From assembly GCA_000825765.1 (NCBI GenBank), contig CDGH01000009.1, positions 1 to 32,220 of the forward strand: a stretch of DNA of 32,220 nucleotides, in the 5' to 3' direction. The position numbers were made by a program, and so were the translations under genes. Below the pieces are notes generated by a model that was given only the letters and a program-made list of their open reading frames with translations, did not search any database and had not been told where the DNA came from. Shown here piece by piece: positions 9,160 through 20,321 of this stretch (its first letter is position 1; the number at the start of each line of letters is the position of its first letter). The DNA is from Ehrlichia minasensis (GTDB taxonomy: Bacteria; Pseudomonadota; Alphaproteobacteria; Rickettsiales; Anaplasmataceae).

Positions 9160-10473
9160 ATATATATCAATTTGCAACTGCTAATATAATATTATTTTAC
9201 TATATAAACATTATACCACCCTAAATAGCTCATGAAAATTACCTATTACTGCAATATATTAGGAGTATTTTTCTATATATGCTAAAAGAGTACAATTACT
9301 TTTGTAAATATTCCATTACAATACAAATACATACAGCATATATCTATCAACGTAATATTTATAATATTAATATAAAAAATTTTCTAAATATTGCTTATAG
9401 AAACTACGTGTTTGCAATTACATTAAAAGTGCTCTTCCAACACATATTAATACTAGAAAGACAACTTTTTCATAAACATATGTATTTTATATAATACAAA
9501 ATATAAAAAACACAACAGAACATATCCACATTAATACACATGTTAAATATTATTATCTTACTACATCAATACTAGACCACTCTTAGTTTCTGAAAATTAT
9601 TTATTATTACAATTACATTAGAAATACTCTCTTTCATATATGTAAAGTAAGAACTATTATCTTTGCAAACATTTCATCATAATACAAACACATACAGTAT
9701 ATATTTCAAATGTTCATAGTATGACTACATTAATGTATAAAATCTAGATTTTGCAAACATAGTTAATGAAAATTACTTGTCTTTGCATCATGAGCAGGAC
9801 TTTCTTATACACACAAATAGAATATATGTTTTTAAAGACAACATAAAATTAAGATATATAACACATACTCTTATCAACCACATGTTCTATAGTAGACTTT
9901 CCAATGCATCATTAGACTTGTAAATACAGTACTTGCAAACTATTTTTATTCGAATGATTATAAGAACTTTTTTACATACACAGAAAAATATATTTTTTAG
10001 AACAATATAAAATTAAAAACATACAGTACATACTCTTATCAACTACATGTTCTATAGTAGACTTTCTAATGCATCATTAGACTTGTAAATACAGTACTTG
10101 CAAACTATTTTTATTCGAATGATTATAAGAACTTTTTTACATACACAGAAAAATATATTTTTTAGAACAATATAAAATCAAATACATATAGCACATACTC
10201 TTATCAACCACATGTTCTATAGTAGACTTTCCAATGCATCATTAGACTTGCAAATACAGTACTTGCAAACTATTCTTATTCGAATGATTATAAGAACTTT
10301 CTTACATACACAGAAAAATATATTTTTTAGAACATATAAAATTAAAGACATATAGTACATATTCTTATCTACCACATGCTCTATAGTATCACTCCTTAAT
10401 GCATAAATATTAGATTTTTGTGGCACAATACATAGTGTCTTTAATCATTAGATGAATTCTTAAAACAAGACTA
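9160..10473. repeat. Degenerate tandem-repeat tract downstream of pgsA
   Basis: The non-coding tract between purH and pgsA. The anchor word TATAGTA(T/G) recurs at 9888, 10053, 10218 and 10382 and again inside pgsA at 10553, giving spacings of 165, 165, 164 and 171 bases. Earlier, weaker copies can be followed at about 9715 and 9551 and possibly further left. The segment 9661-9745 is colinear with the last ~110 bases of pgsA (TTGCAAACAT, then AATACA, then a TAGTAT-containing block). The array therefore seems to have grown from the 3' coding end of pgsA together with its downstream spacer. No gene is supported in it. Confidence 0.75.
9888..10381. repeat. Three near-identical 164-165 bp tandem units
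   Basis: Units 9888-10052, 10053-10217 and 10218-10381 follow one another without spacers and differ at only scattered positions. They are the homogeneous core of the pgsA-tail tract. Fresh identity between neighbours suggests recent expansion by slippage or unequal exchange. Confidence 0.92.
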
Positions 10474-12633: not shown

Positions 12634-12994
12634 ATTACCAATAGTAAATCAGTGTATACGCTTTATTCAAAAACATTCCTAAAATATTATTGCTATCAAT
12701 ACATTACCTTCCAGATTATTTACAGTAGTATAGATATCTTATCAACCATATCAAAACTAACAAATTACTGCAGCTACCCCTCATTAAATAAGTTCTAGAA
12801 TACTATATAAATTTACATTAAATACATCAGTCTACAGACTAGTGCAATAACACGAATATATTACGTATATCAAAACACACAGTAAATCAGGTACTACACT
12901 AAGAAATTTTCAATTACTTGTGCAATACTTTATATCAAATATAAAATAACTTATTAAAAATCTAACATACAAGATCTATATACTATCCCAAATA
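12634..12994. other. Non-coding stretch between two 3' ends, holding a gene-tail copy
   Basis: No gene is supported. It lies between the 3' ends of the oxidase-like gene and SURF1, and its one recognisable content is the SURF1-tail copy at 12716-12763. Confidence 0.6.
12716..12763 (-). repeat. Truncated copy of the 3' end of the SURF1 gene
   Basis: Read on the minus strand this segment encodes LLVLIWLIRYLYYCK and a TAA stop, against LLALIWLVGYVYLCYCK and TAA at the true end of the SURF1 gene (12995-13048). After one 6-base in-frame gap, 41 of 48 bases are identical by my count. It lies 279 bases downstream of the original. It has no start codon of its own and is not expected to be expressed. 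Confidence 0.85.
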
Positions 12995-18155: not shown

Positions 18156-18887
18156 ATGTCAGCAAGCCCACTAGATCAATTTAAAATTCTGACTATATTT
18201 AAGTTACCTAACGTTGCCGGGTATAACATAGATTTTACCAATGCATCATTGTTTATGGTACTATCGACAATTTTGGTCGCACTATTCTGCTACATTGGAT
18301 TAAAGAAAGAAAGTATCATCCCAAATGGAATACAATCAATTGTTGAATTTATCTATGAGTTTATTGCATCAACAATAGAAAGTAATGTAGGAAAAGAAGG
18401 ATTACAATATATTCCACTGGTCTTTACAGTATTCATGTTTATTGCAACATGTAATTTATTAGGAATCCTACCATCAGGATTTACTGCTACCAGTCATATT
18501 GCAGTAACATTTGCAATATCCATGGTAGTGTTTGTTAGCGTCACAATCATAGGATTTAAACATCAAGGAGTTCATTTCTTACGTATATTATTACCAAAAG
18601 GTACCCCAGGTTGGTTAGCTCCAATGATGGTATTTATTGAACTATTTGCATATTGTGCACGGCCTGTAAGCTTATCAATACGTCTCGCTGCTAATATGAT
18701 AGCAGGACATACTATAATTAAAGTAATTGCAGGATTTGTAGTAAAAATGAATATATTTCTCACCCCTTTACCTATGATATTTATCATTATTCTAATTGGA
18801 TTTGAAATATTCGTTGCAATATTACAAGCATACATATTTACAGTATTAACTTGTGTATATCTATCAGATGCAGTTAAAGAACACTAA
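18156..18887 (+). CDS. atpB: ATP synthase F0 subunit a
   Basis: A 243-residue inner-membrane subunit that forms the proton half-channels of the F0 motor beside the c-ring. Six hydrophobic segments are visible. The essential arginine lies in the conserved helix segment [17 protein letters not shown], and the last helix carries the typical [19 protein letters not shown] ending. Length is normal for alphaproteobacteria. The start is supported by GGAG five bases before the ATG. In most alphaproteobacteria atpE follows within tens of bases; here a 1.2 kb repeat tract intervenes. The last ~47 codons have served as the template of those repeats. The C-terminal sequence itself still matches the family, so the gene copy is intact. 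Confidence 0.96.
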
Positions 18888-19248
18888 AAAGTTAATATGC
18901 TTTGCTGACATAAAATAATAATAGCAAGTACTTAATAGTAACAGCAACTATAGACCTTCTCATTTGCGTTTTTTATTAACACTTCATTAGATTTGAGATA
19001 TCTTAACATTCACAGTATTAATTTGTGTACACCCACAAAACCAAATCCGTAAACTCTTATAATATGATTTGCTACTACAAAATGATAACAAAATATACTT
19101 AATTAATAAGCAGTATGCAATAAATATAGAATACATTCTTTACATTTTACTTATAACTTTTTAAATATGCTGTAACCTTCACGCATGCATGTTCATAATA
19201 TTAACTTGCGTATACTAACTAGACTGAGCCAATAAATTCTCATAAACT

Positions 19249-19822
19249 ACTATACCTCACTATTAAAAAATAACTGGACATATTAAAAGCAACAGCGTCA
19301 AAACAATGCATACATCATTACTATTTTATCTATAATTTTTACCTGATGAAACATTACTACAATACTGACATGCACGTATTTTATATAAAATACTAATTTG
19401 TTATAACTAATCAGATTGAGTCAAGAAACTCTCACAAACCACTATACTTCACTGCCAAACAATAACAGGACATATTAAAAGCAACAGCGTCAAAACAATG
19501 TATACATCATTACTATTTTATCTATAATTTTTACCTGGTGAAACATTACTACAATACTGACATGCACGTATTCATATAAAATACTAATTTGTTATAACTA
19601 ATCAGATTGAGTCAAGAAACTCTCACAAACTACTATACTTCATTGCCAAACAATAACAGGACATATTAAAAGCAACAGCGTCAAAACAATGCATACATCA
19701 TTATTATTTTATCTATAATTTTTACCTGATGAAACATTACTACAATACTGACATGCATGTATTCATATAAAATACTAATTTGTTATAACTAACTAGCCTG
19801 AGCCAATAAATTCTCATAAGCC
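19249..19822. repeat. Three near-identical 191-192 bp tandem units
   Basis: Units 19249-19440, 19441-19631 and 19632-19822 directly adjoin and share long identical stretches, for example around AGCAACAGCGTCAAAACAAT. They are the homogeneous core of the atpB-tail array and a likely site of copy-number variation. Confidence 0.93.
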
Positions 19823-19880
19823 ACTATATTTTGCCAGTACAACATGATAATCAAAATACTAAACAAATAACAAATTAATA

Positions 19881-20022
19881 AATATGAATACATTTTTTAT
19901 GTTTTATCTATAATTTTTATCATCATTTTAATCTGCTTTTGAAACATTCCTGCAATATGACAAGAACACAACTTACAGTACCAACTTGTGTATATTTATC
20001 AAACACAGCTAATAAACACTAA
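19881..20022 (+). repeat. Terminal copy of the atpB 3' coding end, frame and stop kept
   Basis: This segment aligns with atpB 18746-18887. Its last 45 bases (19978-20022) read VPTCVYLSNTANKH and stop, against [14 protein letters not shown] and stop in atpB, with 36 of 45 bases identical and no gap by my count. Upstream, the TTTGAAA-ATTC and TTAT(C)-TAATTT blocks are also colinear with atpB, with small frame-breaking gaps, so it is a relic and not a gene. Confidence 0.88.
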
Positions 20023-20032
20023 ATTTTATCAA

Positions 20033-20061
20033 TTGACTTCATATATTGATGAACTTATAAT
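20033..20061 (+). promoter_or_regulatory. Strong predicted promoter of atpE-atpF'-atpF
   Basis: TTGACT (20033-20038) and a perfect TATAAT (20056-20061) are separated by 17 bases, 30 bases before atpE. It begins 11 bases after the stop of the last atpB-tail copy and is the best promoter match in the window. Confidence 0.72.
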
Positions 20062-20091
20062 ACTCTTAACTTTTTATAAAGGTAGGAGTGT

Positions 20092-20313
20092 ATGGAGTCT
20101 TTAAAGTTCATTGCTGTAGGATTAAGCGTTTTTGGTATGGTTGCTTCTGCTCTAGGGGTAGCAAATATATTTTCTACCATGCTAAATGGCTTAGCACGCA
20201 ATCCTGAAACCGAAGATAAACTAAAAAAATATGTTTATACTGGTGCTGCATTAGTTGAAGCTATGGGTCTATTCTCTTTTCTTTTAGCTCTATTACTAAT
20301 TTTTGTAGCCTAG
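20092..20313 (+). CDS. atpE: ATP synthase F0 subunit c
   Basis: A 73-residue proteolipid of two membrane helices joined by the polar loop RNPETEDK, forming the rotating c-ring. The ion-binding carboxylate is E56 in the second helix (ALVEAMGLF). The first helix keeps the small-residue pattern (G10, G15, G22) needed for tight packing. Length is typical (70-80). An AGGAG element lies directly before the ATG. It is separated from atpB by the repeat array and has its own promoter-like sequence. atpF' begins 8 bases after the stop. Confidence 0.97.
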   Translation: MESLKFIAVGLSVFGMVASALGVANIFSTMLNGLARNPETEDKLKKYVYTGAALVEAMGLFSFLLALLLIFVA

Positions 20314-20321
20314 TGTAAATC

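Follow-up and report, generated by a model that had tools for sequence, protein, structure and literature searches.

The genes atpB and atpE encode F0 subunits a and c, and in a 32,220-nucleotide contig of Ehrlichia minasensis (the whole stretch analysed, hereafter the window) they stand 1204 bp apart, with the atpB stop codon ending at 18887 and atpE starting at 20092. What is this DNA, and how did it come to lie between two genes of one cluster? The corresponding spacer is 69 bp long in five other Ehrlichia (E. muris, E. ruminantium Omatjenne, G003 and, by coordinates, G002 and G005) and 67 and 70 bp long in two Neoehrlichia, so the unduplicated state is present in outgroups. Anaplasma spacers at this junction measure 200-1386 bp, and we found no tail homology in them. 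Our analysis indicates that the gap in the window is very probably a tandem array in decay, built solely from the 3' coding end of atpB, neutral debris lying between a stop codon and the next promoter (Table 1).

Table 1. Features of the atpB-atpE locus, in window coordinates.
Feature	Position	Strand	Evidence
atpB, F0 subunit a, intact, 243 aa	18156..18887	+	ORF; 97% aa identity to E. canis over residues 1-243
Source segment, last ~212 coding bases of atpB	18676..18887	+	Profile matches, E 5.9e-9 (18676-18880) and E 5.1e-20 (18676-18887)
Decayed tail copy W1, orthologue of E. canis C1	18888..19062	+	nhmmer 18893-19061; UFBoot 100 with C1
Decayed tail copy W2, orthologous to E. canis C2/C3	19063..19246	+	nhmmer 19061-19244; UFBoot 99
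Decayed tail copy W3	19247..19437	+	nhmmer 19247-19436; 94% to W4
Decayed tail copy W4	19438..19628	+	nhmmer 19439-19627; TRF period 191
Decayed tail copy W5	19629..19819	+	nhmmer 19630-19818; 93% to W4; W3-W5 one group, UFBoot 100
Last tail copy W6, with stop codon, orthologue of E. canis C4	19820..20022	+	nhmmer 19821-20021; 110/142 to gene tail (19884-20022); UFBoot 99 with C4
Ancestral 69-bp atpB-atpE spacer, single	20023..20091	+	69 bp in five other Ehrlichia; 67/69 identical to E. canis
Promoter-like site TTGACT-17-TATAAT upstream of atpE	20033..20061	+	11/12 consensus positions; conserved hexamers; predicted from sequence
atpE, F0 subunit c, 73 aa	20092..20313	+	Translation; 100% aa match in E. 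canis and E. muris

The repeat unit and its source

Local alignment of the atpB tail (18747-18887) with 19884-20022 gives 110 identical columns out of 142 and a score of 144. The highest score among 1000 dinucleotide shuffles of the array was 57, as it was among 1000 shuffles of the tail. The sequence-only reading had placed tandem units derived from the atpB tail between the two genes and had proposed shuffled controls as the check; the location and the homology both survive it. Within the array, TRF reports a period of 191 with 3.2 copies and 91% matches at 19214-19828. An alignment of six window units, four units from E. canis and the gene tails resolves a head-to-tail series in noncoding DNA, in which each unit begins inside atpB and finishes at the equivalent of its stop codon, where we placed the unit borders by eye.

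We built a profile from the array units that excludes the gene itself and the last copy of both the window and E. canis. This profile matches window atpB at 18676-18880 (E 5.9e-9) and the atpB genes of E. canis (3.3e-10), E. muris (4e-7) and E. ruminantium (5.9e-5); a weak match to Neoehrlichia atpB (E 0.01) covers a similar stretch. The atpB matches span nearly the whole profile and fall inside the last ~212 bases of the gene. A profile of all units, searched on one strand, has seven matches in the window, namely the six array units and the gene tail. Because the unit profiles match the tail nearly end to end, we read 18888-20022 as the atpB 3' coding end (~212 bases) repeated six times. The 1204-bp gap thus divides into 1135 bp of atpB tail and 69 bp of old spacer. 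A source of ~140 coding bases had been suggested earlier; the atpB tail was the right origin, and its length is about 212 bases. The unit had also been described as tail plus spacer. Beyond the intact atpB stop, the DNA matches coding sequence from further upstream in atpB; it does not match the 69-bp spacer. The unit therefore has essentially none of the ancestral spacer, which is present once, after the last copy. A unit containing it is ruled out here, and only the tail part of that description holds.

Searches of the draft genome of the same organism at E<=0.001 found no match to the unit at 19438-19628 outside the array (38/38 candidates scored), and the 212-base atpB tail matched only itself and the last copy (32/32 candidates scored). 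A query with the whole spacer returned itself and the atpB tail among the 40 of 91 candidates scored. An array unrelated to atpB elsewhere in the genome, which would have spoken for another origin, was likewise absent from the results of the unit and tail queries. Foreign or mobile DNA inserted between atpB and atpE would explain why two genes that lie near each other in most relatives measured are split in the window, but nearly all 1135 bp match a unit profile that also matches atpB, and the array has no match elsewhere in its own genome. These two results rule insertion out, and we give it practically no chance. Tandem duplication of the atpB 3' coding end, with no foreign DNA, had been put forward from the sequence alone, and the profile matches and genome searches agree with it.

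The copies are homologous, in direct orientation, to a working neighbour gene, and they lack its start and, as judged for the last copies, its intact frame. The final array copy and the last 15 atpB codons share 36 of 45 bases without gaps, an identity that had been taken to mean that frame and stop were kept. The count is correct and the stop is there, but its preservation looks incidental given three in-frame stops upstream of it in W6. The E. canis copy has more such stops and an indel in that region, and a coding or frame-preserved last copy is thereby ruled out.

The 69 bp between the last copy and atpE align with the spacers of other genomes and are nearly unchanged between the window and E. 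canis, while the array beside them is far more diverged. They hold the promoter-like site, in which 11 of 12 hexamer columns are invariant among seven Ehrlichia and Neoehrlichia sequences. Promoter-like matches across the scanned region occur at chance number (13 against 12.6 expected from shuffles), so the promoter reading leans on conservation. The array sits between the atpB stop and this site. Since the ancestral spacer and the promoter-like site still adjoin atpE, transcription of atpE without atpB may still be possible. An old operon pair can in this way be separated while a downstream promoter-like site stays untouched.

Comparing the gene ends of the window with their own spacers (14 spacers, hand-listed genes, 200 shuffles each) gave z 20.6 for the atpB 3' end. 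Apart from it, the 3' ends of pgsA (z 5.1) and a SURF1 gene (z 4.2) were alone in exceeding every one of their shuffles; a tRNA 5' end reached z 3.0, but its score of 22 was below the shuffle maximum of 26. The pgsA match (p 6e-6 in the multi-species count described below) lies in the 1520-bp purH-pgsA spacer, where a second array occupies 9799-10388 with a 165-bp period and 3.6 copies by TRF. A 3' match also occurs for a pgsA-like gene in Neoehrlichia (L114), and SURF1 tail copies are found both at 12634-12994 of the window and in E. chaffeensis (L092 5533-6782).

History of the array in E. canis and E. minasensis

The sequence-only reading named E. ruminantium as known for intergenic tandem repeats. 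The host is not that species, and the arrangement is not peculiar to this genome. Window atpB is 97% identical to that of E. canis and 84% to that of E. ruminantium Omatjenne, whose 69-bp spacer carries no array. The comparison with E. canis that the same reading recommended reveals an array there too: the atpB-atpE spacer of E. canis Jake is 747 bp long and holds four units with the same anatomy, and tail duplication recurs across the genus. The Jake genome is a complete single record and thus displays the structure independently of the window assembly. Unit number differs between these close relatives, with six in the window, a draft assembly, and four in E. canis Jake. The published UFMG-EV assembly was built from 2x150 short reads, according to the available portion of PMC4319577. 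If the window belongs to that assembly, the count of the near-identical units W3-W5 (93-94% alike) could be unreliable.

At least three units are older than the split between E. canis and E. minasensis, because W1 pairs with C1, W2 with C2-C3, and W6 with C4 (UFBoot 99-100). Judged from the groupings of their sequences, W3-W5 are an apparent expansion in the window lineage and C2/C3 one in E. canis, although loss in E. canis may be why W3-W5 have no partner there. All copies form one group at UFBoot 68, and the placement of this group beside atpB tails of the canis lineage has a value of 55. With tree support at these levels, the date of origin rests mainly on the species distribution of the array.

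We propose that, in the lineage of E. canis and E. minasensis, head-to-tail duplication copied a segment of ~200 bp whose downstream border lay at the atpB stop or slightly beyond it. Selection would have continued to act on the copy attached to the gene body. The downstream copies, with neither start codon nor promoter, would have drifted, as their loss of identity and their stop codons suggest, and unequal exchange or slippage could then have altered copy number in each species.

The array might instead be kept for a function, either as a regulatory leader or insulator for atpE-atpF'-atpF or as a store of sequence for gene conversion into the end of atpB. The survival of at least three units since before the species split would suit such a role, and the available portion of PMC9937504 reports that a nearby partial ntrX copy in E. 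ruminantium converts its parent gene. Against this, indels and stops break the last copies, the array has diverged strongly next to a spacer that has barely changed, and promoter-like matches are no more frequent than chance predicts. Gene conversion into the atpB end has left no sign: the two species differ at 10 of 212 bases in the tail and at 29 of 520 in the body, so that tail and body diverge alike. We consider a retained function very unlikely and continue to favour neutral decay of tail copies.

Gene-end copies in spacers across Ehrlichia

Is atpB a special case? From each of E. canis, E. ruminantium and E. chaffeensis we sampled 400 kb, added the window, and tested the 250 bases at every gene end against the spacer next to it, accepting matches at p<1e-4 from a Gumbel fit to 100 shuffles. 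Spacers <100 bp or >3000 bp were left out of the count, as were ORFs <100 aa or without an ATG start; atpE, being under the ORF cut-off, was not called as a gene, and the window array was therefore counted in a spacer ending at 20321. Gene starts were set at the first ATG, which weakens the 5' test. Copies of the adjacent gene end were detected for 34 of 497 3' ends and for 2 of 501 5' ends (Fisher 5e-9). By sample, the 3' matches were 10/164 in E. canis, 5/146 in E. ruminantium, 16/176 in E. chaffeensis and 3/11 in the window; the 5' matches were 0/166, 1/140, 1/180 and 0/15, respectively. Matches include orthologous pairs (two junctions matched in two species, and one spacer was counted twice), so independent events are fewer than matches.

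Three controls accompany these counts; the mid-gene one was restricted to genes >750 bp, and the window was excluded from the other-gene one. For the 3' set, inverted ends matched in 3/497 cases, mid-gene segments in 0/301 (the own ends of the same genes in 21/301) and the tail of another gene in 0/486; for the 5' set the figures were 0/501, 2/307 and 0/486. The asymmetry persists among conserved genes that lack a paralogue within the same 20 kb (3' 26/360 versus 5' 1/361; Fisher 1.4e-7) and among genes >=600 bp without such a paralogue (27/347 versus 2/357). The 255 codirectional spacers, each bordered by one end of either kind, contain 15 3' matches and one 5' match, and a match was present in 18 of 121 convergent and 1 of 123 divergent spacers. 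The bias in Ehrlichia stands after the codirectional test, three controls and three filters, which rejects spacer length, composition, gene families and false genes as its cause. Strong inverted copies of the 3' end of the adjacent gene were seen in three Ehrlichia spacers (L035 1204-3500, L042 4207-4803 and L066 6701-8372) and for 0/501 5' ends.

Across loci, the usual unit starts within the gene, tens or hundreds of bases from its end, and extends some tens of bases beyond the stop, so that, unlike the atpB unit, it includes a short piece of spacer. Most periods fall in the range of about 116-430 bp, and borders vary by locus. A dispersed fragment of atpB (bases 140-373 or 377, 76% identical) lies far from atpB, in a spacer between two genes, in E. 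muris (L030 ~1501-1733) and G003 (L029 ~1501-1738); we take the flanking genes to be smpB and valS.

Outside Ehrlichia the picture is mixed. In Neoehrlichia, 15/158 3' ends and 8/156 5' ends matched, or 5/135 and 2/132 once genes with a paralogue in the same 20 kb are removed. The corresponding values are 10/133 and 3/179 (filtered 8/123 and 3/167) in G083, a member of the Anaplasmataceae, and 10/154 and 6/158 (filtered 6/130 and 5/134) in A. phagocytophilum, where the bias reverses for genes >=600 bp without a nearby paralogue (1/84 versus 3/89). The single genome from another family, G045, had no match at either kind of end (0/144 each). The 3' bias is thus clear in Ehrlichia, unclear in Neoehrlichia, weaker but present in G083, and absent or uncertain in A. 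phagocytophilum. One G083 spacer (L120 15225-17208) holds a direct 3' tail copy of a gene that is presumably ntrX.

TRF found 81 arrays in the three Ehrlichia samples, of which 18 cross a 3' gene end, one crosses a 5' end, 10 lie inside genes and 52 are confined to spacers. These counts bear on whether the atpB array could be an ordinary variable-number tandem repeat, like those of E. ruminantium, whose overlap with atpB is accidental and implies no special tie to gene tails. Its tandem form and changing copy number do resemble the intergenic repeats of that species (as described in the available portion of PMC10710844), and arrays lying wholly in spacers are the common kind, making up 31 of 34 in E. 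ruminantium. However, the atpB units map nearly end to end onto coding sequence, and the asymmetry between 3' and 5' ends, together with its controls, ties the copies to gene tails. The unit profile contradicts an ordinary repeat of this type at atpB; we judge it very unlikely, and duplication of the atpB tail remains our reading of the locus.

Spacers with matches tend to be long. Over 33 comparisons of a match spacer with orthologous junctions, the median was 893 bp for matches and 299 bp for 29 unflagged junctions, where the latter include L003, L004, L005 and L007, which contributed spacer lengths and were absent from the match test; among the junctions of these loci is the E. canis atpB junction, which does carry the array. 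Background orthologous pairs were similar in length (439 and 446 bp, 274 pairs), and tested but unmatched E. ruminantium junctions can be longer than those of the match species (2137, 1927, 1286 and 1114 bp). An 884-bp spacer with a tail array occurs in E. ruminantium (L053 12834-13717) within a gene pair whose coding regions overlap by 4 bases in both E. canis and E. chaffeensis.

Directly traceable tail DNA makes up 2.4% of 3'-adjacent spacer in E. canis, 0.9% in E. ruminantium, 3.1% in E. chaffeensis and 4.8% in the window. These shares are lower bounds: applied to the window, the pairwise method traces only 520 bp, against 1135 bp that the profile recovers at atpB alone. Tail duplication is one source of spacer, and traceable amounts of 0.9-4.8% do not establish it as the main one. 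As an explanation of all spacer in the genus it is unsupported by the detectable amount, and the 52 spacer-confined arrays touch no gene.

Why should the copies lie so one-sidedly at 3' ends? Selection could have removed duplications at 5' ends; most simply, a 5' copy would bring a start site, and with it a truncated protein, or would disturb a promoter. The main rival is that the bias is mutational, with duplications forming preferentially at 3' ends, for example at sites of stalled transcription or replication forks. Even where a spacer has one end of each kind the asymmetry is strong, and the present counts do not tell formation from survival, both of which leave room for this alternative. 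Unit lengths and borders that vary from locus to locus look unspecific and argue against it. We regard a formation bias as doubtful, while giving it serious weight, and prefer selective removal of 5' duplications.

Ehrlichia genomes are small yet rich in noncoding DNA. One spacer explained almost base by base offers a concrete, testable source for part of the excess, and tail leftovers found almost only at 3' gene ends suggest a way for unusually large gaps to grow. Tentatively, gene tails might seed intergenic arrays throughout Ehrlichia: duplications would arise everywhere, only those at 3' ends would survive, expand and decay, and many arrays that are no longer readable would have begun in this manner. 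If so, the unusually low coding density of the genus would in good part consist of decayed gene tails.

Comparison with known repeat systems

Mycobacterial MIRU repeats form a dispersed family, with members found, for example, between senX3 and regX3. Like the atpB array, such repeats stand in tandem between two co-oriented genes of a cluster and beside a promoter, and the senX3-regX3 intergenic region contains promoter activity according to the available portion of PMC4213456. Unlike MIRU, the atpB array derives from a neighbouring gene and has no match elsewhere in its own genome; in the draft genome, with all candidates scored, one unit and the atpB tail matched within the atpB locus alone.

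The available portion of PMC9937504 describes an inverted partial duplicate of ntrX in E. ruminantium that undergoes gene conversion. Like the atpB copies, it is a partial gene copy near its parent and presumed unexpressed. As that portion presents it, the ntrX duplicate is inverted, single and exchanging with its gene, whereas the atpB array is direct and multi-copy and gives no sign of exchange, its parent being equally diverged in tail and body. Orientation also separates the inverted E. ruminantium copy (PMC9937504, available portion) from the direct tail copy of the ntrX-like gene in G083. The literature matches listed include no report of a gene-tail origin or 3' bias of repeats, which is no proof of absence.

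The closest likeness is to the intergenic variable tandem repeats of Ehrlichia. These have units of about 100-200 bp. Collins and colleagues reportedly linked the repeats to truncated gene copies, and Frutos and colleagues are said to have described units of about 150 bp. In E. ruminantium, intergenic tandem repeats of variable copy number expand and contract (Collins et al. 2005 and Frutos et al. 2006, as summarised in the available portion of PMC10710844). Such repeats, and partial ntrX duplication with conversion (PMC9937504), were thus already known in that species, as far as the available portions of these sources extend. Like the E. ruminantium repeats, the atpB array consists of tandem units in noncoding DNA whose copy number differs between close relatives. 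Unlike them, it belongs to another lineage, the origin of its unit can still be read as the coding tail of the adjacent gene, and the gene-overlapping kind to which it belongs is one-sided in the samples compared, lying almost only at 3' ends.
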